Part shown: in pieces, positions 5,877-24,934 of the stretch
Layout of the letters: every line of letters starts with the position of its first letter
How positions within the stretch are numbered: the first letter of the stretch is position 1
Notes under the pieces: generated by a model
What the model was told of the DNA's origin: nothing
Seen by the model: the letters and a program-made list of their open reading frames with translations, nothing else
The model's database searches: none
DNA from: Blautia sp. MSJ-19
Lineage (GTDB): Bacteria > Bacillota > Clostridia > Lachnospirales > Lachnospiraceae
Reading direction: 5' to 3'
Assembly: GCF_018918125.1 (NCBI RefSeq)
Contig: NZ_JAHLQA010000025.1
Coordinates: forward strand, 1 to 64,000
Length of the DNA: 64,000 bases
Program-made: the position numbers and the translations under genes

Positions 5877-7091
5877 CTATGCCAGTTTTGCAATCCTATT
5901 CATCTCTTCTTTTGCATCAATTAATCCCAGATGCGTATATACATTTAACGTAACCCCTATATCAGAATGTCCCATTAAATATTGGAGTGCTTTCGGATTC
6001 ATTCCAGCTTTCGCCATATTGGAACAATATGTATGCCTGCATACATGAGGCGTGATCTTTGGCATTTGTTCCTCATGAGTACGATTATACTTTCCTAACG
6101 CCCACTGAAAATGTTTTTCCCAATGAAGTGCTACCTCAGGCATATCTTTTTTATCCAGGAATAGAAATCGACTATATCCATCTATAATCGGCTCAACCCT
6201 TACTTTTTTACGGTTTTTCACAATCTGTTCAAAACATTCATAAACTTCATCTGTCATCGGTAACATTCGTGTTCCACTTGAAGTTTTGGTATCTTCAATG
6301 ACGTACTGCATTCCTCTGGTTCTCTGAAGCTGATGATTCACATTGATTTTTCTCTCCTGAAGATCAATATCTTTCACTGTCAATCCACAAAACTCAGAAA
6401 TACGAAGTCCAGTCTTAAACAAAATAAACATTCCATTATAGTATTTTGAGTAATGGTCATCATTTCGGATAAACTCCAGAAATAACTCTTCCTGTTCTTT
6501 TGTAATTGCCTGTCTTGTAACACTGTCATTTACGACAACTGTACATAATTGAAATTCAAAAGGATTCTTGCGCAGTAAATCATCTTCAACTGCCATCTGA
6601 AATGCAGGTCTTACAATTCCACGCACACTGTGAATGGAACTGTATCCTCTTCCATCTGCTTGCAGCTTAATAAACCATGCTTTTGCATCCGACAATTTTA
6701 TTTTATCTATTCTTCTGGTTCCGAATTCTTCTTTTTTTATTATATTGATCACAAAATCATAGTTCGCCTGAGTGTTATGACGAACCCCCTTTTTTTGTCC
6801 AATATATTTTTGAACCAAATCCAAAACTGTTAAATTTCCTCCGTAAGGTACTATACCATCATGTAAATCTCTTTGGATATTTTTTTCTTTTTCCCTTAGA
6901 GCTAAGCATGGTCTGCATCCAGTTGGCAGAGAATCTGTTGGCTCTAATTTCCAACTATACAAAAACTTCTGCTTTCCATAACAATCTGTATATACAAACG
7001 CATATCTTCCATCTTTTCTCTGACTTTCTCCGTTTCGTAAAATTCGACCTTTTTTATCTCGTCGTTTTTGGTCACGTTTTGTTTTACCCAA
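5877..7091 (-). CDS. int: Tn916-family tyrosine recombinase (ICE integrase)
   Basis: About 405 residues. I place the start at TTG 7089-7091, which has AAAGGGG (7101-7107) nine bases upstream; a GTG at 7127 gives twelve more residues with no such site. The N-terminal DNA-binding domain reads RRDKKGRILRNGESQRKDGR, very close to Tn916 Int. The catalytic residues are visible: Arg in TGLRISEF (~230), Lys in EDTKTSSGTR, His-x-x-Arg in TPHVCRHTY (~347), His in LMGHSDIG and the nucleophile Tyr in LNVYTHLG (~383). It excises and integrates the ICE with Xis, which is encoded just upstream on the same strand. Confidence 0.95.
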   Translation of the reverse strand: MGKTKRDQKRRDKKGRILRNGESQRKDGRYAFVYTDCYGKQKFLYSWKLEPTDSLPTGCRPCLALREKEKNIQRDLHDGIVPYGGNLTVLDLVQKYIGQKKGVRHNTQANYDFVINIIKKEEFGTRRIDKIKLSDAKAWFIKLQADGRGYSSIHSVRGIVRPAFQMAVEDDLLRKNPFEFQLCTVVVNDSVTRQAITKEQEELFLEFIRNDDHYSKYYNGMFILFKTGLRISEFCGLTVKDIDLQERKINVNHQLQRTRGMQYVIEDTKTSSGTRMLPMTDEVYECFEQIVKNRKKVRVEPIIDGYSRFLFLDKKDMPEVALHWEKHFQWALGKYNRTHEEQMPKITPHVCRHTYCSNMAKAGMNPKALQYLMGHSDIGVTLNVYTHLGLIDAKEEMNRIAKLA

Positions 7092-7195
7092 ACGTCTTCG
7101 CCCCTTTCTACGAAGAAGCCCTAGCACGATATAGGTATTATATCATACCAGGGCTAACATTTCCACTTTAAAGTGTTAAATTGTTCGTATATTTT

Positions 7196-11982: not shown

Positions 11983-13310
11983 AATACATCTGCAATCCAG
12001 ATAAAACTGACCAGAATCTATATATTTCTTCCTTTGCCTGCTCTCCCGAAACAGCCGTTCTTGACTTTAAATACACTTTGGATCATACACATGACTGCAG
12101 AGATCCGCACAATACAAATAAGGCATTTCATCTGATTCAGGCATTTTCCCCTGGTGAAGTTTCCTATGAAGAAGCCCATCAGATTGGCAAAGAACTTGCG
12201 GATCGCTTACTGGAGGGAAAATACTCCTATGTTCTGACAACACACACTGATAAAGGTCATGTACATAACCATTTAATTTTCTGTTCTGCAGATAACATCA
12301 CTTTTTCTCATTACCATGACTGTAAAAAGAATTACTGGAAAATACGAAATCTCAGCGACACTTTATGCCAAGAACATAACCTGTCCACAATTATGCCAGA
12401 TGGTAAAAAAGGAATGAAATACAATGAATGGGCTGCAAATAAATCTGAATCCAGTAAAAAAGCGCAGCTGCGAAAAGATATCAACCAGACAATCCGAATT
12501 GTTTCCACTTACTCAGAATTTCTTGCATTTATGGAAGCTAAAGGATATGAAATAAAAAACGCAGAATTTGGCGAAAACAGCAGAAAATACATTACCTTTC
12601 GTTCTCCCGATATGTCCCGTCCAGTGCGTGGAAGTGCTAAATCTTTAGGAAAAAATTTTACTAAAGAACGTATCAAAGAACGCATTGAAAATAAACGTCA
12701 GAAAGCTATTTTTCCTTCTGTTCATAACAAATTAATAGATACCAATGCTCCCAATATAGCAGGAAACATTGGGCTTCAGAAATGGGCAAATAAGGAAAAT
12801 TTAAAAATTGTCTCTGCTGAATATAACAAGATGCTCACACATAATCTACATAATTTTTCAGAACTTGAAGACCGCATAGCCTTGTTACATATGCAGCAAA
12901 AAGAGGTAAATACCTCTGTTGTTTCTCTCGAGTCTCAGATACGTCATCTTCGAGAAATGCTAAAATATGCCAAACAATATCAGAAAAATAAAATTTACGA
13001 TGACCATTATAAAAGTTCCAAAGATCCGGATCGTTATTTCCGTAAATATGAATCTCAAATTATTCTTTTCGCTGGTGCTGAACATATTTTACAGGAAAAT
13101 GGTATAGACCTGAAACATCTTAATTCCAATAAGTTACAAGAGCAACTTTCAGATCTTATTTCCAGAAAGGAATCACTAAATACTCAATACGTTTCTTTTA
13201 AGCAAGAAATAAAAGAGTTGGAATTGATACATCAAAACCTGTCCAATTATCTCAAACAGGATGCTCCTGAAATACAAAGATCTTCTCATAACCAACTCCC
13301 TTCTTTGTAA
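11931..13310 (+). CDS. Relaxase, MOBP type (ICE)
   Basis: 459 residues. The N-terminal relaxase domain opens with MAVTKIHGIKTTVDKAIEYI and carries the three-histidine metal motif in HTDKGHVHNHLIF (about residues 105-117); the catalytic Tyr is probably in the first 40 residues. The C-terminal half is coiled coil (about residues 320-450). It nicks oriT and pilots the transferred strand through the ICE type IV secretion system. Tn1549-type ICEs carry the same MobC/relaxase pair near their accessory genes. A degenerate copy of its last 65 codons lies at 20804-21000. Confidence 0.93.
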   Translation: MAVTKIHGIKTTVDKAIEYICNPDKTDQNLYISSFACSPETAVLDFKYTLDHTHDCRDPHNTNKAFHLIQAFSPGEVSYEEAHQIGKELADRLLEGKYSYVLTTHTDKGHVHNHLIFCSADNITFSHYHDCKKNYWKIRNLSDTLCQEHNLSTIMPDGKKGMKYNEWAANKSESSKKAQLRKDINQTIRIVSTYSEFLAFMEAKGYEIKNAEFGENSRKYITFRSPDMSRPVRGSAKSLGKNFTKERIKERIENKRQKAIFPSVHNKLIDTNAPNIAGNIGLQKWANKENLKIVSAEYNKMLTHNLHNFSELEDRIALLHMQQKEVNTSVVSLESQIRHLREMLKYAKQYQKNKIYDDHYKSSKDPDRYFRKYESQIILFAGAEHILQENGIDLKHLNSNKLQEQLSDLISRKESLNTQYVSFKQEIKELELIHQNLSNYLKQDAPEIQRSSHNQLPSL

Positions 13311-13486
13311 AACCATAATAATAGGCAGCGATTTCACTCGCTGCCTAAATTCCCATTAAACCGATATCCTACACCTCGTACTGTTTGTATATATAATGGT
13401 TGTCCAGGATCATCTTCTATTTTTTCTCTGATATTGCAGATATGTCGCATGACCACATTATAATCACCGGAATAAGGTTCATTCCA
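13114..13486. repeat. Direct repeat, copy A (relaxase 3' end to winged-helix gene)
   Basis: This segment recurs at 20804-21176 in the same orientation, with a constant offset of 7690 bases and no gaps seen by eye; about nine of ten bases match. It covers the relaxase C-terminus, the hairpin at 13322 and the 3' half of the winged-helix gene. Beyond 13486 the two genes continue to resemble each other but far less closely. Confidence 0.85.
13322..13347. terminator. Hairpin between the relaxase and winged-helix genes
   Basis: TAGGCAGCGA (13322-13331) and TCGCTGCCTA (13338-13347) are a perfect 10-bp stem with a TTTCAC loop, between convergent genes and overlapping the end of the winged-helix gene. 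No strong T-tract. The same hairpin recurs at 21012-21037. Confidence 0.65.
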
Positions 13487-13747
13487 TACCAGATCATAAA
13501 CCATTTCTTTTCCAAATATTCTACCTGGACTTTTCGCTAAAAGAAGTAAAATATCATATTCATATTTTGAAAGATGAACATCACTATCATTCTTTTTAAC
13601 AATTCGTTCCTGTAGATATATTTTTAATTCTCCAAACCTTATAATTTCCGGTATGAATTGGTTTTTATGTTCCCAGCTAGTCAATATGTTTTCACTTATG
13701 CTTCCATTAGCATCTGTGATTCTCTCAATAATTTCTACCTTTTTCAC
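13334..13747 (-). CDS. OmpR-type winged-helix DNA-binding protein without receiver domain
   Basis: 137 residues. The C-terminal ~95 residues are a Trans_reg_C winged helix (LSKYEYDILLLLAKSPGRIF, then YDLVWNEPYSGDYNVVMRHI and YIQTVRGVGYRFNG). The first ~40 residues do not form a phospho-acceptor receiver. It is divergent from blaI across a 120-base promoter region, so it could affect or be affected by that promoter. Its 3' half is nearly identical to that of the gene at 21024, but the N-terminal parts differ, which points to recombination within the gene. Confidence 0.8.
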   Translation of the reverse strand: MKKVEIIERITDANGSISENILTSWEHKNQFIPEIIRFGELKIYLQERIVKKNDSDVHLSKYEYDILLLLAKSPGRIFGKEMVYDLVWNEPYSGDYNVVMRHICNIREKIEDDPGQPLYIQTVRGVGYRFNGNLGSE

Positions 13748-13797: not shown

Positions 13798-13845
13798 TTG
13801 ACTTTTTTCTTCTACAAGTAATATAATATATTTATTACATATGTA
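13798..13845 (+). promoter_or_regulatory. blaI-blaR1 promoter with BlaI/MecI-type operators
   Basis: TTGACT (13798-13803) and TATAAT (13822-13827), 18 bases apart, form a strong sigma-A promoter. TACAAGTA (13813-13820) lies between the boxes and TACATATGTA (13836-13845) lies at the expected start of transcription. The latter is a perfect TACA-nn-TGTA dyad, the known core recognised by BlaI and MecI. Repression by the BlaI encoded just downstream is therefore expected. Confidence 0.8.
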
Positions 13846-13868
13846 GGATTTAGCAGGAGGATTTTATT

Positions 13869-14240
13869 ATGTCACTACCCCAGATTTCAGAAGCCGAATT
13901 TGAAGTTATGAAAATTGTATGGAAATATGCTCCCATCAATACAAATGAAATTACAGAAAAACTTACTCTAACTACCAGCTGGAGTCCAAAAACAATTCAA
14001 ACTCTTATCAAGAGACTTGTTTCCAAAAAAGCTCTTTCCTACGAAAAACAAAGCCGGGTATTTGTCTATACTCCATTAGTCCAAGAAGATGAATATATAC
14101 GCCAGGAAAGCAATTCTTTTTTAAAGCGATATTATAATGGAAATCTTTCTTCTATGCTGGCTTCTTACCTTGAAGACGATAAGCTCTCTTCAACAGAAAT
14201 TGATAACTTACGCCATTTATTATCAAAACATCAGAAATAG
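13869..14240 (+). CDS. blaI: BlaI/MecI family repressor
   Basis: 123 residues with CAGGAGG before ATG 13869. The winged-helix N-terminus is typical (ISEAEFEVMKIVWKYAPINT, then TTSWSPKTIQTLIKRLVSKK and ALSYEKQSRVFVYTPLV), and a C-terminal dimerisation helix pair follows, where BlaI/MecI are cleaved on induction. BlaI represses beta-lactamase or PBP2a genes until BlaR1/MecR1 senses a beta-lactam. The gene sits 10 bases before blaR1. Candidate operators are present before blaI itself, the DUF6070-like pair and the PBP gene. Confidence 0.93.
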   Translation: MSLPQISEAEFEVMKIVWKYAPINTNEITEKLTLTTSWSPKTIQTLIKRLVSKKALSYEKQSRVFVYTPLVQEDEYIRQESNSFLKRYYNGNLSSMLASYLEDDKLSSTEIDNLRHLLSKHQK

Positions 14241-14250
14241 GAGGTTTTGA

Positions 14251-16047
14251 ATGAGCAACTGGATCATCCACTTTTTAATCAGTAATATCTTCATATGTAT
14301 TTTTACACTTGTAATAATCGGAACAAAAAAACTTCTGAAAAAATATTTATCTGCGGCTACACAGTACCATCTCTGTTTTCTTTTATTTTTATTACTTGCC
14401 GTGCCATTTTTTCCTGTACAGATTCATGGCTCACAACTTTTTTCATGGTTACATTTTTTTCAAACTGACTCAGGACTTAACTCTGGTACCGACACGCTAT
14501 CCGAACTTACCAGTAATACACAAAATATTTTGTTAAACCAGGTGAATGATTTTTCAGTTTCCATCAGTAGTCAATTTTCTGGAGGCTTGAATACCATACT
14601 CTTTCTAATATGGATAACGGGTGTTATGATTATGTCAGTCCTCACCCTTCATTCATTAAACTATGTACGTTCCATAAAAAGATCTGCTCTCCCGCTTCAA
14701 AATCAGCAGGTAAAAACTATTTATTACAATTGTTTAAAGGAACTTAAAATCTCTCACCCAGTATCAGTCTACAGTACTGCATTTTTAAAATCACCAGTTT
14801 TAATCGGAATAATACATCCCAGGATTTACATTCCCATCCATTTAATTTCCGAACTGAATCCTGATGATATGCGTTTTATGCTGCTACACGAATTACAGCA
14901 TTACCGTCACAAAGATACATTTATTGGCTTCCTCATGGTCATAAGTAATATACTCTACTGGTTTAACCCTTTTGTTTGGTACACTTTAAAAGAAATTTTC
15001 TGTGACCGTGAAATAGCCTGTGATTCTGCTGTATTGCAGATGATTTCTGCTGATGAATACCAAGCTTATGGAACTACACTGATTAATTTTGCAGAAAAAA
15101 TATCCTCTTTTTCCTCTCCACTGGCAGTTGGAATGTCCGGAAATTTCAGGCAGATGAAACGACGTATTCTCAACATCGCCGTTTTTAGGAAAGAAACTCT
15201 TTATCAAAAAATGAGAGCATTGATAATTTATCTGGTCATTAGTGCTGTTTTTATTGGATGTACACCCATTTTATCCATTGATGCCTCTACTCAAAGCGTA
15301 TATCATTTTAGTGATACAGACAAAAATATCTCCCTGTTAGATATATCCGAAACATTTGGAACATATGATGGATCATTTGTTTTGTATGACAATAATTTGG
15401 ATTCCTGGAAAATATACGATCTTGAAGAAGCCACCAAACGTATTCCGCCAGAGTCTACCTACAAAATATACGATGCATTATTAGGGTTGGAATCCGGAAT
15501 CATCACACCAGAACACTCTTCCATGACATGGAATGGTGATGCCTTTCCTTTTCCATCCTGGGAAGCTGATCAGGATTTAAACTCTGCTATGCAAAATTCC
15601 GTTAACTGGTATTTCCAGGCAATTGATTCGCAGCTCGGAATTAACAGAGTCCAGGAATTTTTGAATAAAATAGAATATGGAAACCAGACAACCAGTTCAA
15701 ATCTGGATTTATACTGGTCCGATTTTTCATTAAAAATCTCGCCTTTAGAGCAAGTAACATTATTGAAAAAATTTAACACAAATGAATTCCATCTAAATTC
15801 CCAAAATGTATTTTCTGTTAAAAATGCTATAAAAATTGCCAGTACACCTAATGGTAATTTCTACGGAAAAACTGGAACCGGTCGTGTCAACGGACAGGAT
15901 ATCAACGGCTGGTTTATCGGATATGTAGAAACTTCCGATAACAGCTATTATTTTGCAACCAATATCCAAAGTGATTCTAATGCAACTGGCAAAAAGGCAT
16001 TTGAAATCACTTCTGATATCTTAAAAAAATTACATATATGGAATTAA
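14251..16047 (+). CDS. blaR1: BlaR1/MecR1-type beta-lactam sensor-transducer
   Basis: 598 residues, a usual BlaR1 length. The N-terminal half has four probable membrane segments and an M56 zinc-protease domain with HELQHYRHKD (~215-224) and the later DREIACD Glu. The C-terminal extracellular sensor is class D beta-lactamase-like: Ser-Thr-Tyr-Lys in PESTYKIYDAL (~Ser401), the YGN motif (EYGNQ) and KTGTG (~538-542). Beta-lactam acylation of the Ser is known to activate the protease and cause BlaI cleavage. All key residues are present, so it is probably functional. A terminator follows at 16055-16090. Confidence 0.94.
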   Translation: MSNWIIHFLISNIFICIFTLVIIGTKKLLKKYLSAATQYHLCFLLFLLLAVPFFPVQIHGSQLFSWLHFFQTDSGLNSGTDTLSELTSNTQNILLNQVNDFSVSISSQFSGGLNTILFLIWITGVMIMSVLTLHSLNYVRSIKRSALPLQNQQVKTIYYNCLKELKISHPVSVYSTAFLKSPVLIGIIHPRIYIPIHLISELNPDDMRFMLLHELQHYRHKDTFIGFLMVISNILYWFNPFVWYTLKEIFCDREIACDSAVLQMISADEYQAYGTTLINFAEKISSFSSPLAVGMSGNFRQMKRRILNIAVFRKETLYQKMRALIIYLVISAVFIGCTPILSIDASTQSVYHFSDTDKNISLLDISETFGTYDGSFVLYDNNLDSWKIYDLEEATKRIPPESTYKIYDALLGLESGIITPEHSSMTWNGDAFPFPSWEADQDLNSAMQNSVNWYFQAIDSQLGINRVQEFLNKIEYGNQTTSSNLDLYWSDFSLKISPLEQVTLLKKFNTNEFHLNSQNVFSVKNAIKIASTPNGNFYGKTGTGRVNGQDINGWFIGYVETSDNSYYFATNIQSDSNATGKKAFEITSDILKKLHIWN

Positions 16048-16054
16048 CAAATAT

Positions 16055-16090
16055 GAAAGGGCTGATAGTTGTTATCAGTTCTTTCTTTTT
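16055..16090 (+). terminator. Terminator after blaR1
   Basis: GAAAGGGCTGATA (16055-16067) pairs with TATCAGTTCTTTC (16073-16085), with a two-base mismatch, and TTTTT follows. It overlaps the end of the convergent DUF6070-like gene and may serve both directions. Confidence 0.75.
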
Positions 16091-17307
16091 ATTCTATATT
16101 GATATTTGGGAACTTCTTTCGTACCATTATTCAGAATTTTATTCCCCATATATTTAAAACTCTTATCATCGTTGAACTTAACAGTCAGCTCACTTGTAAT
16201 AACGGCATCATTACATATAAATGTATCACATACAGCATCAACAACCAGCACATTGTTTCCCTCTCCGCTATCTCTTATTTCAACGACCTCCGGTAAAGAT
16301 GTTCCAAAATAAGTAGGGCTATAATTTAAACAACCTAATCGTTCCCAGTCATAAGTTTGATGTTCCGAATCAAATACTGCCCATTTTTTAATTTGCTCCG
16401 CTGTTATCGGCAAAAACTCCATTATCAGATTTTCAAACTCTTCTGCCGGAATTCCACTTGAGTTACCTGAAAACTCATATCTCTCCCCGTATTTCATTCG
16501 ATATAAATATTCATATAAACCATTATAATCTAACCCTTCCATATCAGATCTATCCCAATCAGAACATAAAAGATTATTCCCCTGATATCCAAGCAAATAC
16601 ACACACCTCTTTGAAACTTCCCTGCATTCATCACTTAAAGGTTTAATTCTTATCATAGAACTGCCATCAACCGCTTCTGATACTTCCGGATATTTTGGAA
16701 CACATAGCGTATAACCAAACCAGCCTTTTTCTGTATATTTCCATTCTTCTATCCTTGTATACGAAACATATACAATAGATGGATTGTCGTTCATACCCCA
16801 AACAACTTTCACAGCCAGCAAATACATATCTGTCCCATCATAATTGAATTTGAGTCTTTCTATCCCACCATCCCTGTTAATCCTATATAAGACGATATCT
16901 CCTGGCAGATCCTGTTCTGCCTTGAAAAGAAATTCTTCCATTTTAGAATAATTAGCCATATTTGAATACGGCGCTGATGTAATAACAGGGACATTTTTTT
17001 CCTTTAATACTTCCTGCATTTCTTCCATTACTGTCTCAGAAACTACTACATTCGATGAAGTTCCTTTATCCGCCTTTTGATAAATGGCTTTCATCTGATT
17101 CATAACATTCTTACAATCTTCAATAGCTTCTTCTTTCACGACTTCATCTACTGGCAAATCATATCCTCTTTCTTGTACAGCATAATTCGCAGTTTCCTGT
17201 GAAATATATTCTAAATCAGCCCCTTTACATTTTGTATTTCCTATGAAAAAGCATCCCAAAATAAATAAAACACTCACCATCTTTTTCAGTTTTCTTTTTG
17301 TACTCAT
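16075..17307 (-). CDS. Exported DUF6070-like protein
   Basis: About 410 residues from ATG 17307, which has GGAGAT (17314-17319) upstream and begins two bases after the stop of the preceding gene. An N-terminal hydrophobic stretch (VSVLFILGCFFIG) acts as signal peptide or anchor. The rest is a mixed soluble domain (EEFLFKAEQDLPGDIVLYRI, WKYTEKGWFGYTLCVP, VYLLGYQGNNLLCSDWDRSD, PEEVV-like end region) shared with the neighbouring lipoprotein; I recall this pattern as DUF6070. The function is unknown. Tandem arrangement and a BlaI-type operator upstream of the pair suggest a role during beta-lactam exposure, perhaps at the cell envelope. Confidence 0.7.
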   Translation of the reverse strand: MSTKRKLKKMVSVLFILGCFFIGNTKCKGADLEYISQETANYAVQERGYDLPVDEVVKEEAIEDCKNVMNQMKAIYQKADKGTSSNVVVSETVMEEMQEVLKEKNVPVITSAPYSNMANYSKMEEFLFKAEQDLPGDIVLYRINRDGGIERLKFNYDGTDMYLLAVKVVWGMNDNPSIVYVSYTRIEEWKYTEKGWFGYTLCVPKYPEVSEAVDGSSMIRIKPLSDECREVSKRCVYLLGYQGNNLLCSDWDRSDMEGLDYNGLYEYLYRMKYGERYEFSGNSSGIPAEEFENLIMEFLPITAEQIKKWAVFDSEHQTYDWERLGCLNYSPTYFGTSLPEVVEIRDSGEGNNVLVVDAVCDTFICNDAVITSELTVKFNDDKSFKYMGNKILNNGTKEVPKYQYRIKRKN

Positions 17308-17308
17308 A

Positions 17309-18466
17309 TCAATTATCTCCATAACATTCCTCCCACTTTTCGTCTGATAATCTTTCCGTATACCAGGTAACCTCTATTTCTGACCTTGATACATAATTGG
17401 ATACATATTGAAATCTATCTTTATCTAACAGCCGAATGGTTACGCTATGACAAAACGCCTGATCTAATTCTTTTTGTGGCCATACCGCATTTACTTCCAG
17501 TGTTATTGTTCCATCTTGATTTTCTATGTAGGAAACAACTTCCGGATATGGAATATATGGTGTGGAAGCAAAATCATATACGATTCCTCTGGTTCGATAC
17601 CGATATGTCTGTGTTTCCGTGTGAAATACCGTTCCTGTCTGCAGTATCTCTGCGCTTATATTAAAATATTTTTGAAATATCGCTTCAAATGATTCTTTTG
17701 GGATTTCATAAGTCTTTCCTTCCTTAAATTCATCAGCTTTTTCTTCCATTGAAAGTAAACGGTCAAAAACATCATAAAAATTTATTCCATCATAATTTTT
17801 TTCACTCCAATTAGAAGTAAACAATTTATTAAGTGTATATCCAAAAGGAAGTATATATTTTCGATTCAGCTCCCTGCATTTTTTATTTAACGGCACTACC
17901 CGAAAGGCCCGATATCCAGACGGTCCATCATATCCAGCCGGATGATATTCTTCCATAAAGAAATACCCGTTTTCTGTATATTTCCATGAATTAGCTCTAA
18001 ACTCATGATAATATGTTTCCTGCCAAGTATCCTCTTTCCATTTAAAAGAGCTTACTTCAACGTCTATTTTCCCCTGTTTGGTTTTCAGATCATACCGAAT
18101 AAAATGATCCCCTGCTATAACTTGAAATATAGTAGTTTTTCCATTTTTCTCTTTTTCTGCTTTTTTCAAAAAATCATCTACTTTAATACTTTGAACCATA
18201 TCCAGCTGATTGTAGGAATCAATTACTGCATATCCATATTTTCCAAAATAATCCATACTTTTTTGTATTGTACTCAGCTCATATAGTGCATTTTCTTTCA
18301 CAGCATTCTCATATATGCTCTGATAGCCTTCTGCTAGCATTTCACACTCTCTGTAAATTTTTTCTTTCGTATCTTCAATTGTCTTTTTCTGCTCTTTCTT
18401 TATGCCACATCCACTACAGACAGCAAGAAAAATAACTCCCACAAATATTTTCCAAATTTTTTTCAT
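17309..18466 (-). CDS. Probable lipoprotein, DUF6070-like
   Basis: 385 residues. The start has a signal peptide ending in a Cys-rich site (VIFLAVCSGCGIKK), consistent with a lipoprotein. The mature part parallels the next gene: FLKKAEKEKNGKTTIFQVIA, SWKYTENGYFFMEEYHPAGY, LPFGYTLNKLFTSNWSEKNY and PYPEVVSYIENQDGTITLEV. The two are therefore diverged paralogues. The gene begins 13 bases downstream of a TTACATTTGTAA dyad (18479-18490), a BlaI/MecI-type operator. A sensor, chaperone or PBP-helper role outside the membrane is possible but not shown. Confidence 0.72.
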   Translation of the reverse strand: MKKIWKIFVGVIFLAVCSGCGIKKEQKKTIEDTKEKIYRECEMLAEGYQSIYENAVKENALYELSTIQKSMDYFGKYGYAVIDSYNQLDMVQSIKVDDFLKKAEKEKNGKTTIFQVIAGDHFIRYDLKTKQGKIDVEVSSFKWKEDTWQETYYHEFRANSWKYTENGYFFMEEYHPAGYDGPSGYRAFRVVPLNKKCRELNRKYILPFGYTLNKLFTSNWSEKNYDGINFYDVFDRLLSMEEKADEFKEGKTYEIPKESFEAIFQKYFNISAEILQTGTVFHTETQTYRYRTRGIVYDFASTPYIPYPEVVSYIENQDGTITLEVNAVWPQKELDQAFCHSVTIRLLDKDRFQYVSNYVSRSEIEVTWYTERLSDEKWEECYGDN

Positions 18467-18478
18467 ATCATTTTCCTC

Positions 18479-18490
18479 TTACATTTGTAA
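18479..18490. promoter_or_regulatory. BlaI/MecI-type operator before the DUF6070-like pair
   Basis: TTACATTTGTAA is a TACA-nn-TGTA dyad with 5-bp arms, located between the PBP stop codon and the lipoprotein start codon. The flanking ATATT makes it resemble the larger operator at 20641. It suggests that the pair has its own BlaI-controlled promoter. Confidence 0.7.
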
Positions 18491-18506
18491 TATTTAAAGG
18501 TAAAAA

Positions 18507-20609
18507 TTATTCATTACCAAGATATTCATCCAGTATCGCCTTATCCTTTTCCACCACATAACCGCTTCCTCCAATATCTTTCACATTCTCTACCATACTG
18601 ATGAGCAAAATAGGATTCTTTGTATCTCTGTCTGTAGTAAAAACTGTAAACCAGCCAATTTCTGTTCCAGATGTATCTTCTTTTGTAGCTTTCAGTTCCG
18701 CTGTTCCGGTTTTTCCTGCTAATCTAATGTCTTCCCTGCATGCTCCATAACCAGTTCCTTCCGGGTTATTCACTACACCCTCTAACCCCTCCATAACCTC
18801 CGAAACAATTTGTGGTGAAAAAGCATCTTTTATCCAGATTTCACTGGAAGTGCTTCCACCATCCGCGTGAAGATATGGCTTTATCATATTTCCATCATTT
18901 AGAAAAGCCGTATAAATGCTTGCAAGATGCAAAGGATTTACCAGAATCTGTCCCTGTCCATACCCACTGTCAGCAAGCTGGATTTCTGTTTCTATCTTGT
19001 CCATATTAGAATATTTGGACTCTGACATTTTAATATCAAATGGAAGTTCCTGATTAAATCCTATTTGATTTAGAGACTGCATCAGTTGATCCGCACCAAT
19101 TTTTAATGCTGCTTTTGCAAAATAAATATTATCTGAATAAATAAGCGCATTTTTCAAAATCACAGGTTCATAATCATGAAGTGTAGTCACTGTATAATCT
19201 CCCCACGAGGAATCTTTCTGCCACGCCAGACCCTCATTTCCAAAATCGTCATTTGCAGTAAATGCCCCCACTTTTAATCCAATTGCAGCAATTACAGGTT
19301 TAAAAGTTGAGCCAGGACACCATGTCTGGCGAAAGCGGTTGTATAAAGGCCTATCTTCATTTTCATTTAATGCACTCCACTGGCTGTTGTCCATTCCACG
19401 TACAAAATCATTATCATCATAAGATGGCGTACTTACCAACGCCAATACTTCCCCTGTGTAAGGATTCAAAGCCACAGAACATCCTCTGTCTTCTTTAAAT
19501 TGTTCATAAAGAGTACTTTGAAGATCACCATCAATCGTAGTATGGATATCTTCTCCATCTTTTCTAGGCTCATATGCAATAACACTTTTTTTATTTCCAT
19601 TTGCATCTACAATACAGATTTCACACCCATCTGTTCCTTTTAGTTCTTTTTCATAAAGCGTTTCCAGTCCAGTCTTTCCAATCACACTGTTTGTACGATA
19701 CCCTTCCCCTTTATGTTCCTGCAAATCTTCGGCTGTAACCGCCTGTACATACCCTACCAGATGAGAGGCAGCTTCTTTTAGATAATAAGTTCGTACTTTT
19801 ACATCAGATAACATAATACCTGGAATCTTCAATAATGTGTCCTGCTTTTCTTTTTCTTCCAGAACAGTTTTATCCGGATTCACTGTCAGAAGATCGACCT
19901 CTTGTATTTTAGGAATTGTTGCTACTGGTACAAAAGAATCTGCTTTTACCCAACCGGCTTCTAACTTATCCTCAATTTCGTCTGCTCCAATTCCAAGATA
20001 CTCTGCCAGTTTTTTTATTGTATCTTCTCTGTTCTCCATCCTGCCCGGAACAATTCCTACCGAAGATGCAGTTCCCTCTCCAGCCAACTGACGACCATTT
20101 CTGTCTAAAATATCTCCTCTCTTTGCCTCTTCTGACGTTACCTGAACTTTATCCGTTGCAGATAACTCTGGAAAAATCAACTGATCCTGCCAGATTAAAT
20201 GATATCCTGTCCAATCATGTGAAAATACCGCATCGTTGGTAAATTCTACATTTCCTGCAGCAGTCTGCATATTTGTTGTATAGGAAACTGCCGCATTTCC
20301 GTTTTCTTGTCTTTTTACTGTAATATCGGTTATGGACAGATCAGACATCTCAATGCCTTCATATATTTTAGAATTTCGTTCTATAAATTCTTCCTTACTG
20401 TTCATGCTGCTTTTTTTCTGATCCAGCATGGCATACATTTGCTCATATTCCCCTTTTTCAATATATTTCATATATTCCATTAGTCTTTTTTCAGGAACAT
20501 TACAATTCATTATTGTTACAATACCGATTTCACCACCAATCAATATACCGCTAAATAAAACTATTTTTGTGATAATCTTCGTGAGTTTTTTTCTTTTCTT
20601 TTTTCTCAT
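18507..20609 (-). CDS. MecA/PBP2a-type penicillin-binding protein (class B transpeptidase)
   Basis: 700 residues. An N-terminal membrane anchor (~11-33) is followed by a MecA_N NTF2-like domain (~38-150: LMEYMKYIEKGEYEQMYAML, DAVFSHDWTGYHLIWQDQLI), a PBP dimerisation domain (RGDILDRNGRQLAGEG, ~165-180) and the transpeptidase domain. Catalytic motifs are intact: Ser-Thr-Phe-Lys in CPGSTFKPV (~Ser434), SDN in YSDNIYFAK (~492) and KTGTAE (~633). This is the layout of low-affinity class B PBPs such as PBP2a and Pbp5 of enterococci, which cross-link peptidoglycan when other PBPs are blocked. A 12-bp-arm BlaI/MecI operator overlaps its promoter. Resistance is inferred, not shown. Confidence 0.92.
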   Translation of the reverse strand: MRKKKRKKLTKIITKIVLFSGILIGGEIGIVTIMNCNVPEKRLMEYMKYIEKGEYEQMYAMLDQKKSSMNSKEEFIERNSKIYEGIEMSDLSITDITVKRQENGNAAVSYTTNMQTAAGNVEFTNDAVFSHDWTGYHLIWQDQLIFPELSATDKVQVTSEEAKRGDILDRNGRQLAGEGTASSVGIVPGRMENREDTIKKLAEYLGIGADEIEDKLEAGWVKADSFVPVATIPKIQEVDLLTVNPDKTVLEEKEKQDTLLKIPGIMLSDVKVRTYYLKEAASHLVGYVQAVTAEDLQEHKGEGYRTNSVIGKTGLETLYEKELKGTDGCEICIVDANGNKKSVIAYEPRKDGEDIHTTIDGDLQSTLYEQFKEDRGCSVALNPYTGEVLALVSTPSYDDNDFVRGMDNSQWSALNENEDRPLYNRFRQTWCPGSTFKPVIAAIGLKVGAFTANDDFGNEGLAWQKDSSWGDYTVTTLHDYEPVILKNALIYSDNIYFAKAALKIGADQLMQSLNQIGFNQELPFDIKMSESKYSNMDKIETEIQLADSGYGQGQILVNPLHLASIYTAFLNDGNMIKPYLHADGGSTSSEIWIKDAFSPQIVSEVMEGLEGVVNNPEGTGYGACREDIRLAGKTGTAELKATKEDTSGTEIGWFTVFTTDRDTKNPILLISMVENVKDIGGSGYVVEKDKAILDEYLGNE

Positions 20610-20640
20610 ATAGTTTTATTTCTCCTTTTTTCATATTTTC

Positions 20641-20674
20641 TTAAATATTACACTTGTAATATTTAAACGTCAAG
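20641..20674 (-). promoter_or_regulatory. PBP promoter with long BlaI/MecI operator
   Basis: On the - strand TTGACG (20669-20674) and TAATAT (20646-20651), 17 bases apart, form the promoter. The spacer and -10 box are covered by a dyad with perfect 12-bp arms, TTAAATATTACA (20641-20652) and TGTAATATTTAA (20655-20666), centred on TACA-nn-TGTA. This matches the mecA/blaZ operator design, where the repressor covers the promoter. Confidence 0.88.
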
Positions 20675-20803
20675 CTTTTTCTTAGGTTTATATATGTAAA
20701 CAAGAGGAAAGATTTGGATAAAAAAAGAAAGGGCATCTCAAAGCCTTCTTTGATAAAGAACTTTACGACACCCTGAGGTAATGGTTTCTCCGGATGTTTC
20801 CCA

Positions 20804-21000
20804 AGCATCTTAATACTAATAAGTTACAGGAGCAACTTTCAAATCTTATTTCCAAAAAGAAGTCAATAAATACTCAATACGTTTCCTTTAAGCAAGAAAC
20901 AAAAGAGTTGGAATTGATACATCAAAACCTGTCCAAATATCTCAAACAGGATGCTCCTGAAATACAAAGATCTTCTCATAACAAACTTCCTTCTTTGTAA
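20804..21000 (+). pseudogene. Relaxase 3'-end remnant
   Basis: 65 codons corresponding to the end of the relaxase at 11931-13310 (TNKLQEQLSNLISKKKSINT, ELELIHQNLSKYLKQDAPEI, stop at 20998-21000). The upstream part of the gene is absent; homology begins at about 20804. It is the left part of direct repeat copy B. Confidence 0.85.
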
Positions 21001-21011
21001 AACCATAATAA

Positions 21012-21037
21012 TAGGCAGCGATTTCACTCGCTGCCTA
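21012..21037. terminator. Hairpin, second copy
   Basis: TAGGCAGCGA and TCGCTGCCTA as at 13322-13347, between the relaxase remnant and the convergent winged-helix gene. Confidence 0.6.
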
Positions 21038-21410
21038 AATTTCCGTTAAACCGATATCCTACACCGCGCACCGTTTGTATATATACCGGATGTCTAGGAT
21101 CATCTTCTATCTTTTCTCTAATGTTGCAGATATGTCGCATAACAACATTGTAATCACCCGAATAGGGTTCATTCCAGATTATATCATATATTTGTTCTTT
21201 ACTAAACACTCTTCCAGGACTTCGCATTAATAAATGCAAAATTTCAAACTCTGTAAAAGACAGATCTATTTTTTTCTGCTTTCGGAATAATTCTCTTGTG
21301 GCTAATAAAATAACAATATCTCCATAATGTATTTTCAATGGATTTATATTTTTTTCATCACAATATATATTTCGTCCGGTTTTCAAAGCAGCAAGAACAG
21401 ACTCTATCAT
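21024..21410 (-). CDS. OmpR-type winged-helix protein, second copy
   Basis: 128 residues from ATG 21410. The same frame is open further upstream (to about 21480) without ATG, GTG or TTG, so the true start is uncertain or the N-terminus has been lost. The C-terminal winged helix (LSFTEFEILHLLMRSPGRVF, IIWNEPYSGDYNVVMRHICN, IQTVRGVGYRFNG) is nearly the same as in the gene at 13334, while the N-terminal halves differ. No receiver domain. It follows the ABC transporter genes on the same strand and may regulate them. Confidence 0.7.
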   Translation of the reverse strand: MIESVLAALKTGRNIYCDEKNINPLKIHYGDIVILLATRELFRKQKKIDLSFTEFEILHLLMRSPGRVFSKEQIYDIIWNEPYSGDYNVVMRHICNIREKIEDDPRHPVYIQTVRGVGYRFNGNLGSE

Positions 21411-21487: not shown

Positions 21488-22717
21488 CTAATTATAAACT
21501 TCTTTTCTGCGATATATAAAATAAATAACTGGAACAATCAATAATAGCAGAATGGAGTACGATATTATTAAAATAGGAACTGCGCAAAACACTTTTCCTC
21601 CGATTTCATACAAGTTAAAAAATTTAACTACCTGATTCATTTGAAGCATTTGATCTGGAAGAAGTCCCAAAATTTTATTTAATAATGGTAGACTTGTTCC
21701 TGATAAAAATGATGGAAGAAAAATCAAAATAAAAGGCACGATTACCGCTATTACTGATGAGTTTGTCTTCGCAGAAACCAACATAGTTAGAGATTGCATA
21801 AATAAACATCCCAGATATCCACCCAGAACTATCAAAATATATTCCTGAGCATTCGTGATATTATAAATACTCTTCCACCCACTCATACTAGACTGTATGG
21901 GACAATTTGCTCCGTCTACACCAAGAATTCCCAAAACAAGCATAGTGTATAACAACATAACCGCCCAGTAAATAGCCGTTATTATGATTGCTCCTGCTTT
22001 CACTTTTGCCCATACAGCCTTATTTCTGCCATAATAAGAAGAATAAAAAACTGCATTCGCTTTCAGCTGAAATTCACCTGAAAAAATACCTGCACAAAGG
22101 AAACCTAATACCAATGTCAAAATCATAATTATTGAGGGTGAATATTGAAATAAGTTTTTCCATCCCGCTTGATAATTATAATATAAAGGGGTTTTCATTT
22201 TTTCATACGCTCTTATTAAATAACTTTTTTCCTTTTCAGAAAACTGATCCTTTCCATCAGTTTCTAACCAATTTTTCAAATTTTTGATACGATTAGAATA
22301 AAAATCTACTGCTTCATCAGGAGAAAGAGAATCTGCCAGATAATAATTATAATCGTTAAACTCTCCATAATCACAATTTAGTAAATCCCTTATATCCATG
22401 AAACCCTGTCTTTGACTATATGCTATATCATTCTGTCTAAAATCATTCGACTTAGCTTCCGGTGTCTGTGAAATCCTGACATTTTCTTCAATAATTTTTC
22501 TAAGCACATCCTCTGTCAGTTCTCCTGACCATTCTTTTTTCAACTCACGAACCTTTAACATAGCCGATATTCCACTTTCCGCATCACCATTACGATTCAC
22601 ATATTTATTATCCCCGATGATAAAAGACAAGACTACTGAAATTACAATAAAAATAAATATCAGCGCAACCTTACTTCCTTTTTTTGAAAAAACTTTTTTT
22701 ATTTCATAATACGTCAT
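21488..22717 (-). CDS. ABC-2-type transporter permease
   Basis: About 409 residues from ATG 22717 (AGGTG lies upstream; GTG 22726 and ATG 22723 also possible). It starts in the MTYYEIKKVFSKKGSKVALI style of ABC-2 membrane components, with one N-terminal membrane segment, a large outside loop (~40-190) and five or more membrane segments in the C-terminal half. It overlaps the end of the ATPase gene, so the two form one exporter. The substrate is unknown; related exporters remove peptides or antibiotics, or act in envelope stress. Confidence 0.85.
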   Translation of the reverse strand: MTYYEIKKVFSKKGSKVALIFIFIVISVVLSFIIGDNKYVNRNGDAESGISAMLKVRELKKEWSGELTEDVLRKIIEENVRISQTPEAKSNDFRQNDIAYSQRQGFMDIRDLLNCDYGEFNDYNYYLADSLSPDEAVDFYSNRIKNLKNWLETDGKDQFSEKEKSYLIRAYEKMKTPLYYNYQAGWKNLFQYSPSIIMILTLVLGFLCAGIFSGEFQLKANAVFYSSYYGRNKAVWAKVKAGAIIITAIYWAVMLLYTMLVLGILGVDGANCPIQSSMSGWKSIYNITNAQEYILIVLGGYLGCLFMQSLTMLVSAKTNSSVIAVIVPFILIFLPSFLSGTSLPLLNKILGLLPDQMLQMNQVVKFFNLYEIGGKVFCAVPILIISYSILLLLIVPVIYFIYRRKEVYN

Positions 22718-23591
22718 AATCATCACCTGTTTTCTCTCCGAAATAATATAAGAATATGTCCTCCAAAGTCATCGTTTCCTCTTTCGCATTATAGTGTGGA
22801 GATTTTTCAGACAAAATGCGTAATTCTATTCCATCCGAAAGTGTTTTCATATTTGAGACTTTAAACTGTTTTTGCCACATTTCAACTTCATTATTTGCAA
22901 CTACACAACTCCATACTTTTACTGGTACTGACTGAATAATCTCTTCTTGTGTTCCTGAATGGCTAATCTTTCCATCTTTCATCAATAACACCTGGTTGGC
23001 AATGTATTCAATATCCGACACAATATGTGTTGATAATAGCACGAGACGATCCTGTGACAATTCACTGATCAGATTTCGAAAACGTATCCTTTCATTCGGA
23101 TCCAGACCTGCAGTAGGCTCATCGAGGATCAAAATCTTTGGGTTATTTAGCATAGCTTGGGCAATCCCTGCACGGCGTTTCATTCCTCCAGACAATTTTT
23201 TCATTTTTCTATTCTGCATTTTAGCCAACCCAACCTGCCGCAGAAGTTCTGTTACACGCTTTCGTGCAATACTTGTTCGCATTCCTTTAATTGACGCAAT
23301 ATACATTAAATAATCATGAACCGAAAACTCCGGATAAAATCCAAATTCTTGAGGTAAATAACCAAGAATTCTCCTATATTCGCCATCCAATGCAAAAATA
23401 TCTTTTCCATCACATAATATGCTTCCCGAAGTAGGTTTAATAAGTGTGCAGAGCATTCTCATCAGCGTTGTTTTTCCAGCACCGTTGACACCAAGAAGCC
23501 CATAAACTCCATTACTCATCGTCAGCGTGATATCATCAACTGCTTTAAATCCCTGAAATTCTTTTGTTAATTTTTTCAATTCTAATTCCAT
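22704..23591 (-). CDS. ABC transporter ATP-binding protein
   Basis: About 295 residues from ATG 23591 with GAGGA upstream; GTG 23606 is less likely. Walker A is GVNGAGKTTLM, the signature is LSGGMKRRAGIAQ and Walker B is ILILDEPTAGLD, followed by a switch His in LLSTHIVSDIEYIANQ. It is of the drug/lantibiotic-type ABC-2 exporter class. Encoded with the permease just downstream and with a sigma factor and membrane protein upstream. Confidence 0.93.
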   Translation of the reverse strand: MELELKKLTKEFQGFKAVDDITLTMSNGVYGLLGVNGAGKTTLMRMLCTLIKPTSGSILCDGKDIFALDGEYRRILGYLPQEFGFYPEFSVHDYLMYIASIKGMRTSIARKRVTELLRQVGLAKMQNRKMKKLSGGMKRRAGIAQAMLNNPKILILDEPTAGLDPNERIRFRNLISELSQDRLVLLSTHIVSDIEYIANQVLLMKDGKISHSGTQEEIIQSVPVKVWSCVVANNEVEMWQKQFKVSNMKTLSDGIELRILSEKSPHYNAKEETMTLEDIFLYYFGEKTGDDYDVL

Positions 23592-23660
23592 AATCAAATT
23601 CCTCACATTTCTCTGATTACGACCGTTGTGTGATTTCTCGTAATTGACACCATAATAGTC

Positions 23661-24425
23661 TTATACACTTGCCCCATTACTCTCGTAATATCTTTCACTG
23701 CATTTCCATACTCGCCAAATACTGTAACACAAACATAAAACAGATAATATCATCATTCCACACCATATTGATGTAGATATATGCTCATAAATACTATCTT
23801 TGAGAACTACAAGCGTCCAAACAGCGATCCAAATCAGACAGGAAAATAATGTGGAAGATACATAATCATCTCCTTTACTGCAAAGTAATCGAAAACATAT
23901 GCAGCATGTCACATTCATTGGCAAAATAAATTGTATTAAGATATCCATAAATGCAATCTGTAACACAAAAGTGCTGGTTATCAAAAACACACTCAATAGG
24001 CAAACATCTACCATGCCGAAGAGTAGCATTCGTGCGGCATATATATTCTTTATGGAAAAAAATGTTGCACCTTCTACTTCCATAGCCCCATTGCTTCTAT
24101 TTTTCCAGAGTTCCGGAAGTATCAATATTACAAAACTCGGTGCCAAAATCCCCATGCAGCGCCTTGTATAAATACTACTGTCTGATAAGAACATTGTCAT
24201 CCAAAGGATTAGTAATACTGCCCCTTGAGCAAACCACCAGTGCTTCTGTATATACGAAGCTTGCTGATATAAAAATTCTAACCATGACATATTTCTTTCG
24301 ATTTCTCCATCCCAATATGCTTCTTTCGATTTTATAATGGTCTGTTGTAATTTTTTCTCATCTATATTTCTATCCTTCTGATTTTTTGCATACGCATGCA
24401 ATTTTTCATCAACTGTCATCATCAT
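23661..24425 (-). CDS. Membrane protein encoded with an ECF-type sigma factor
   Basis: 254 residues with a cytoplasmic N-terminal part (~1-65) and about six membrane segments. The start overlaps the sigma gene's stop (ATGA). Position suggests an anti-sigma factor or a regulator of the sigma factor, but I do not recognise a zinc anti-sigma motif. Other possibilities are a transporter accessory protein. Confidence 0.7.
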   Translation of the reverse strand: MMMTVDEKLHAYAKNQKDRNIDEKKLQQTIIKSKEAYWDGEIERNMSWLEFLYQQASYIQKHWWFAQGAVLLILWMTMFLSDSSIYTRRCMGILAPSFVILILPELWKNRSNGAMEVEGATFFSIKNIYAARMLLFGMVDVCLLSVFLITSTFVLQIAFMDILIQFILPMNVTCCICFRLLCSKGDDYVSSTLFSCLIWIAVWTLVVLKDSIYEHISTSIWCGMMILSVLCLCYSIWRVWKCSERYYESNGASV

Positions 24426-24934
24426 TTCTTATCCCCCAGATAAACACTCAACAATTCTTTTGCTTTTCCTATCCTATATTTTACAAGAGGAAGTCCTATG
24501 CCAATAATATCTGCTACTTCTTTTAATTTCAAATCCTGAAAATAATGTAGAATAACTACTTCCTGCAAATCTTCTGGAAGTTTTTTTATTGATTCTTCTA
24601 TATCTATTTTATTCTCAATTACAGCAATTGGATTTTCCCCCTTATCTGGTAACGCTTCCATCACAATATCTCTTTTTTTCTTATAACTATCCCGACATAA
24701 ATTTCGAGCAATCACATACAAATAATTAGCAGTCTTTCCTAAATGATGATACGACCTAAATGATCGAAAAAAGTGTTCAAATGTTGCTTGAGTAATATCT
24801 TCTGCATCACAGTCTGTGTATGTATGTAATCGACAATAATTCCGTATAGTTGAATAGTATTTTTTTACGAATACCTCTATAGCTTCTTCATCACCATTTT
24901 TCATTTTGTGAATCAAAAGAAAATCTGCATCCAC
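24422..24934 (-). CDS. ECF-type RNA polymerase sigma factor
   Basis: 170 residues. Region 2 is visible (VKKYYSTIRNYCRLHTYTDC, then AEDITQATFEHFFRSF) and region 4 follows (LPEDLQEVVILHYFQDLKLK, EVADIIGIGLPLVKYRIGKA). ECF factors activate a small set of promoters, usually including their own operon. It heads an operon of membrane protein, ABC ATPase, permease and winged-helix protein. CAAGAAAGGAGG-like sequence (24938-24949) precedes the start. Confidence 0.9.
   Translation of the reverse strand: MDADFLLIHKMKNGDEEAIEVFVKKYYSTIRNYCRLHTYTDCDAEDITQATFEHFFRSFRSYHHLGKTANYLYVIARNLCRDSYKKKRDIVMEALPDKGENPIAVIENKIDIEESIKKLPEDLQEVVILHYFQDLKLKEVADIIGIGLPLVKYRIGKAKELLSVYLGDKK

Follow-up and report, generated by a model that had tools for sequence, protein, structure and literature searches.

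A BlaI/BlaR1-linked PBP locus and its described relatives

The staphylococcal mecI-mecR1-mecA system is carried on staphylococcal cassette chromosome (SCC) elements, and the mec operator has a TACA/TGTA-type motif. To our knowledge, the enterococcal penicillin-binding proteins (PBPs) PBP4/PBP5 are accompanied by neither BlaI/BlaR1 control nor DUF6070 proteins. In the available text of PMC3305447, mec and bla are described as divergons, with three bla operators and cleavage at N101-F102, and the Bacillus licheniformis blaP-blaI-blaR1 system is given with blaI before blaR1 and BlaI control via operators. Here, we analyzed a 64,000-nucleotide stretch of Blautia sp. MSJ-19 (contig NZ_JAHLQA010000025.1, positions 1 to 64,000; the window), which lies on contig 17 of a 3.57 Mb genome in 47 contigs. 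Within 13869-20609, the + strand carries blaI and blaR1, towards which a PBP gene and, downstream of it, two DUF6070 genes are transcribed on the - strand. This cassette is real and conserved, and its gene content and operators suggest that it is probably a working beta-lactam-inducible accessory-PBP cassette.

Gene calls and profile searches bore out the gene set proposed in an earlier, sequence-only reading: a class B PBP with a MecA_N domain and two DUF6070 proteins adjoin blaI and a blaR1 whose motifs are intact. The TACA-nn-TGTA dyads claimed for all three control regions were likewise found (13836, 18480 and 20649), as were the 12-bp arms over the PBP promoter. The features are as follows.

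13113-13556: left copy of a 444-bp direct repeat, with the relaxase 3' end and a response-regulator C-terminal gene; the copies are 88% identical
13798-13827, + strand: putative blaI promoter TTGACT-18-TATAAT, read by eye
13836-13845, directly 3' of the blaI -10: blaI operator dyad TACATATGTA, from the motif scan
13869-14240, + strand: BlaI repressor (PF03965, 119 bits)
14251-16047, + strand: BlaR1 sensor-protease (NF000326 blaR1_generic, 623 bits, cut-off 400), with HELQH, STYK and KTGT
14304-14313: blaR1-internal dyad TACACTTGTA, from the motif scan
16075-17322, - strand: second DUF6070 protein (PF19546, 399 bits, cut-off 27), with a signal-like N-terminus by eye
17309-18466, - strand: first DUF6070 protein (PF19546, 416 bits, cut-off 27), with a lipobox-like N-terminus by eye
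18480-18489: dyad between the PBP stop and the first DUF6070 start, within a stretch (18480-18504) that repeats the PBP promoter-operator in degenerate form
18507-20609, - strand: accessory class B PBP (MecA_N + PBP_dimer + Transpeptidase), with STFK, SDN and KTGTA kept
20641-20666: PBP operator, 12-bp arms around CT, with the core dyad at 20649
20645-20673, - strand: PBP promoter TTGACG-17-TAATAT, enclosing the operator dyad (between and over the -10)
20803-21246: right copy of the 444-bp direct repeat, where contiguous homology with three of four Blautia copies ends

The earlier label "MecA-type" holds for the PBP domains (MecA_N, PBP_dimer and Transpeptidase) and not for family membership. 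When the PBP was compared with the mecA/pbp5 families by profile, as the reading had proposed, no cut-off was reached: the best curated model was that of enterococcal PBP4(5), which has the same domains (NF051842, 587 bits, under the 700 cut-off), followed by the PBP2a/mec model NF000237 (441.9 bits, under 750), and the MecA, A1, A2, B, C and D models gave 345-402 bits against cut-offs of 1450-1525. BlaR1 residues 9-597 align with the solved BlaR1 8exs, with HExxH, STYK and KTGT retained and a class-D-type sensor. BlaI has a Penicillinase_R domain (PF03965), and its closest solved structure is the penicillinase repressor 1p6r; the NCBIfam BlaI/MecI exception models were not reached (best 124/180 bits). 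By anatomy, these assignments support the PBP as a putative BlaI-regulated, MecA_N-type accessory PBP.

Like staphylococcal mec, the cassette combines a BlaR1/MecR1-type sensor, a BlaI/MecI-type repressor, a MecA_N class B PBP and TACA/TGTA-type dyads; unlike mec, its PBP falls under the mec cut-offs, its genes are convergent with blaI first, DUF6070 genes are added, and it is borne by an integrative and conjugative element (ICE). The staphylococcal arrangement suggested earlier is not supported: among the 39 complete distinct loci of the survey described below, PBP and blaR1 are convergent in 37 and divergent in two, and blaI precedes blaR1 in 38, whereas mec is a divergon in the available text of PMC3305447. 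The blaI-blaR1 order is that of the B. licheniformis blaP system, from which the cassette differs in that its output is a PBP plus DUF6070 proteins with no beta-lactamase, and in not being a divergon. C. difficile ribotype 017 also has an extra class B PBP, the mobile-element-encoded PBP5 of 696 aa (PMC5875251), with variable presence and a constant chromosomal place (PMC10128037); the two are compared by description only, and no PBP5 regulator is named in the available parts of these papers. For C. difficile isolates, the available text of PMC6435816 tabulates homologues of blaR1 and mecI and that of PMC6469969 gives a blaR gene, with no such cassette in those parts; a PBP3 substitution is added by PMC6291485. 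In the literature searched, largely without subscription papers, the term DUF6070 occurred in no paper and no description of the cassette came up. We view the cassette as a new variation on the BlaRI/mec type (BlaRI denotes BlaI and BlaR1); by the tests made, it does not belong to the mec family.

Operators and promoters in the window and the family

The window contains five TACANNTGTA dyads (13836, 14304 inside blaR1, 18480, 20649 and 56095) against 0.77 expected, and none of 100 shuffles reached five. Genome-wide (3.57 Mb), the plain dyad occurs 111 times versus 52 for the reversed control. The long-armed 16-mer TATTACANNTGTAATA, allowing up to two mismatches, has 32 genomic sites versus 29 for the control; its sole site with no mismatch is the PBP promoter, the sole two with one mismatch (14301 and 18477) are both within the cassette, and the blaI site has two mismatches, as do most other sites. 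Since the 16-mer was derived from the PBP site itself, the weight rests on the other two cassette sites.

The TTGAC-N10-dyad unit is found exactly at two genomic sites, the PBP and C6:8738, which adjoins a second BlaI/M56 locus; allowing one mismatch adds four sites, including one ahead of the DUF6070 pair, with similar totals for the reversed control. We discarded the idea that a complete, independent promoter stands at the 18480 dyad, since, judged by eye, its -10 would overlap the ribosome-binding site; read-through from the PBP promoter across the 40-bp gap is thus the more likely source of DUF6070 transcription. The blaR1-internal dyad was rejected as a general feature: a dyad lies in the first 250 nt of blaR1 in six of 39 loci, five of which are the window and four near-identical Blautia copies, the only ones with a dyad at the 14304 place. 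At 14304-14313 it is possibly an internal roadblock. The second BlaI locus, on the genome's contig 6 (L172 5479-8762), encodes an M56 protease that lacks a transpeptidase-type sensor domain; the locus has dyads of its own, the adjoining exported-protein gene carries the TTGAC-N10-dyad unit, and cross-talk is possible.

The upstream dyad was then counted in loci fetched from other genomes of the family, excluding genes with fewer than 100 upstream bases; linkage, here and below, refers to the fetched stretch. Exact dyads precede 13/21 BlaRI-linked PBPs, 9/18 high-scoring and 5/18 low-scoring unlinked PBPs, 16/31 blaI genes and 7/30 lone DUF6070 genes, against 30/1393 control open reading frames (ORFs) and 123/5000 random stretches. 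An operator matrix built on 30 training sites (consensus AAATCTTACATATGTAAGATTT) and scored leaving one locus out placed 16/21 linked PBPs above the 99th percentile of the 1393 controls (Fisher p ~1e-25), together with 7/18 high-scoring and 3/18 low-scoring unlinked PBPs, 10/31 blaI genes, 5/30 lone DUF6070 genes and 7/47 DUF6070 genes beside a PBP or BlaRI. The exact unit TTGAC-N10-TACANNTGTA lies upstream of 15/40 BlaRI-linked PBPs, 8/46 PBPs without BlaRI and 1/1904 control ORFs; no lone DUF6070 gene has it (0/29; 2/29 with the spacing and one base relaxed). Across 2.25 Mb of fetched loci, it occurs in 27 distinct 80-nt contexts, of which 21 belong to PBPs, five to DUF6070 genes and one lies elsewhere. 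These tests overlap in related loci, and their statistics are not independent. Four distant PBPs without BlaI/BlaR1 (L067, L072, L074 and L076) retain the exact promoter-operator unit, which suggests control in trans. Because the unit extends to PBPs with no BlaRI nearby, the data suggest that BlaI control of the PBP family predates the linkage.

Recurrence of the cassette and the DUF6070 proteins

At E <= 1e-80, the PBP was found in 56 of 299 sampled family genomes; up to three candidates were scored per genome, so second copies may be missed. Besides the window's own, 58 PBP loci were fetched, which with 38 DUF6070 stretches make 96 survey loci; given the number of short contigs, counts of absence are upper bounds. 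BlaI or BlaR1 accompanies 22 of the 58 PBPs, namely 22/40 of those scoring at least 735 bits and 0/18 below, one of the latter having a weak, sub-threshold BlaI-like match. The block thus recurs, and PBP and BlaRI are not always separate, non-regulated genes. The 96 loci divide into PBP alone (31), PBP+BlaRI (8), DUF6070 alone (26), DUF6070+PBP (5), DUF6070+BlaRI (11) and all three (15). DUF6070 shares the strand of the PBP in 35:0 cases (34 downstream of it, one upstream) and is opposite to BlaR1 in 41:0 (39 convergent, two divergent). The 39 complete distinct loci keep the BlaR1 HExxH (39/39), the sensor STYK/STFK (38/39) and the PBP KTGTA (39/39), and their PBP identities track the BlaR1 identities (Pearson 0.97; Mantel 0/2000 permutations). 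In a cassette copy of [Ruminococcus] faecis (L127 9986-12119), the PBP frame is broken into several pieces.

A tree was made from 88 distinct full-length PBPs, after dropping rows identical in the last 450 residues and sequences under 600 residues or 500 bits (including L127). In counts from the printed tree, a clade of 54 (SH-aLRT 99) contains 37 PBPs with BlaRI and five without, the fetched stretch being too short to tell for the other 12; of the 34 outside it, four have BlaRI, 25 do not and five again have too short a stretch. On this tree, linkage changed at least nine times for BlaRI and at least 10 times for DUF6070.

DUF6070 was found in 53 of the 299 family genomes; a sample of 398 genomes from the phylum gave two with it, this genome among them. 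By eye, both copies in the window look exported. The AF2 model of the first protein has a pLDDT of 83, as does that of its C-terminal domain, and neither the whole protein nor the domain matched a PDB structure at E <= 0.001 (best domain E 0.25). Among 50 listed structure matches of the domain, 21 are named NTF2/ketosteroid isomerase, several being chains of one protein, and Pfam describes MecA_N as NTF2-like; hhalign gave no kinship of DUF6070 with MecA_N or between the DUF6070 halves. The DUF6070 profile against solved structures gave an unconvincing best E of 0.033, a viral structure library yielded one uninformative match (E 2e-5, TM 0.29) to an uncharacterised Caudovirales protein, and the plasmid search had no match. 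A contig from a viral collection (L166 7854-9985) carries one DUF6070 gene and part of a second, which lie between phage genes and a set of mobilisation genes with a recombinase, all named by eye.

At 11 loci DUF6070 stands with BlaRI without this PBP, seven of them with at least 5.7 kb covered upstream; the 10 proteins scanned upstream of five such loci are encoded by ordinary genes, e.g., GalT, an ABC transporter, a cytidylate kinase-like protein and a two-component system. Together with the dyad at 7/30 lone copies (controls 30/1393), this makes DUF6070 look like a BlaR1/BlaI output in its own right, probably at the cell surface. We regard as evenly balanced the wider proposal that BlaR1/BlaI switches have in DUF6070 a third type of output, in addition to beta-lactamases and low-affinity PBPs: mostly Lachnospiraceae surface proteins, possibly with two NTF2-like domains, which would be induced by beta-lactams and would protect the wall jointly with the accessory PBP or, at some loci, in its absence.

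Mobile carriage, alternatives and a proposed mechanism

The window encodes a Tn916-type integrase (5877-7127; PF02920+PF00589), a relaxase (PF03432), TraG, TrbL, a CD1107-like protein, a topoisomerase and a Toprim/AAA replication protein, with matches to PF19044 and PF19478. The integrase, relaxase, TraG, TrbL and CD1107-like protein support the earlier view that the cassette is carried by an ICE, here in a gut member of the Lachnospiraceae. The element, which we take to be of the Tn1549 kind, resembles Tn916/Tn1549-type ICEs in these genes and the topoisomerase and differs in having this cassette as cargo. The nearest named kin, Blautia luti, B. massiliensis, B. glucerasea and B. schinkii, have PBPs 98-99% identical to that of the window. 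The cassette shares 98.3% DNA identity with L087, which is also a contig of the same-genus genome G263; the four G263 matches to a single 3.4-kb stretch of the present chromosome are 69-86% identical. From the near-identical copies across four species, we infer that the cassette transfers with the ICE in Blautia. Homology gives way to other DNA at the right repeat in three of these Blautia copies; in the fourth, from B. glucerasea, it continues through the neighbouring ABC-transporter cargo, and the 444-bp repeat therefore looks like a cargo-swap junction. The neighbouring cargo at 21488-24934, in the stretch common to the B. glucerasea copy, comprises a sigma factor, an ABC ATPase and membrane proteins.

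ICE carriage is shown mainly for the Blautia copies. Genes resembling those of this ICE (E <= 1e-25) lie in the fetched flanks of 7/42 PBP+BlaR1, 5/44 PBP-only and 0/27 DUF6070-only loci. The seven come down to five contigs, from four Blautia and one Faecalicatena contorta, with two counted twice; general ICE carriage is therefore not shown. On plasmids, the PBP search gave 54 records, all <60% identical, with no clostridial genus in the tally. PADLOC gave one weak methyltransferase match, taken as chance.

Several results weigh against the reading of the locus as a beta-lactam-inducible cassette under BlaI. The exact dyad stands at only 13/21 linked PBPs and 16/31 blaI genes and is missing from many loci, the exact TTGAC-N10-dyad unit is at none of 53 blaI genes, and dyads also precede PBPs without BlaRI. 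Related loci are not independent, and independent-pairs tests, with few informative pairs, were not significant (BlaRI-dyad median p 0.5; BlaRI-DUF6070 median p 1). Eight PBP+BlaRI survey loci have no DUF6070. The S. aureus N101-F102 cleavage pair is not visible by eye in BlaI, so BlaI inactivation may differ. The dyads before unlinked PBPs (9/18 high-scoring, 5/18 low-scoring) and the genome's second BlaI/M56 locus, with its own dyads and no transpeptidase-type sensor domain, would also suit a general cell-wall stress enzyme under BlaI/BlaR1 with no role in beta-lactam resistance. We consider this quite unlikely, since the class-D-type sensor of BlaR1 with STYK and KTGT, conserved as STYK/STFK in 38/39 loci, points to a beta-lactam as the signal, and the absence of the PBP at E <= 1e-80 from 243/299 family genomes marks it as accessory.

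The 444-bp direct repeats around the block, the other cargo adjoining it and its low G+C, as in the neighbouring cargo, could be taken for a chance pile-up at an ICE hot spot with non-functional dyads; this is highly improbable, as the block keeps its order and orientation in genomes whose flanks have no matching ICE genes, and the dyad-to-promoter spacing is constant. The DUF6070 proteins might be hitchhikers outside the beta-lactam response, given that PBP and BlaRI are both missing from the fetched stretch at 26 of the 57 DUF6070 survey loci (some contigs being short), that seven of the eight PBP+BlaRI loci without DUF6070 still keep PBP, BlaI and BlaR1, and that 23/30 lone copies have no exact dyad. 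The strict opposition to the BlaR1 strand (41:0), the 11 BlaRI+DUF6070 loci without this PBP, seven with at least 5.7 kb upstream covered, and the excess of exact dyads (7/30 versus 30/1393 controls) and of matrix scores above the 99th percentile (5/30) at lone copies argue against this, and we hold hitchhiking to be unlikely.

Taken together, the gene content and operators make it likely that the cassette is a beta-lactam-inducible cell-wall bypass. In the absence of the drug, BlaI would occupy the dyads at blaI and the PBP promoter and keep both transcripts low. Acylation of the BlaR1 sensor by a beta-lactam would activate the protease domain and lead to BlaI inactivation, upon which the accessory PBP and the two exported DUF6070 proteins would be made from one transcript. 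With the resident PBPs blocked, the accessory PBP, presumably of low drug affinity, would continue peptidoglycan cross-linking, and the DUF6070 proteins would act beside it at the cell surface, where a helper role is our guess. In Blautia, the set would travel with the Tn916/Tn1549-type ICE.

These findings point to inducible accessory PBPs in gut commensals as a reservoir that is widespread, in part mobile, and overlooked by mec models at their cut-offs. The DUF6070 link is the part that a specialist would not expect and a new element of such a cassette, and it gives a Pfam family without known function a functional lead, the beta-lactam response. The cassette also offers a testable prediction of how gut Clostridia may survive beta-lactam courses.

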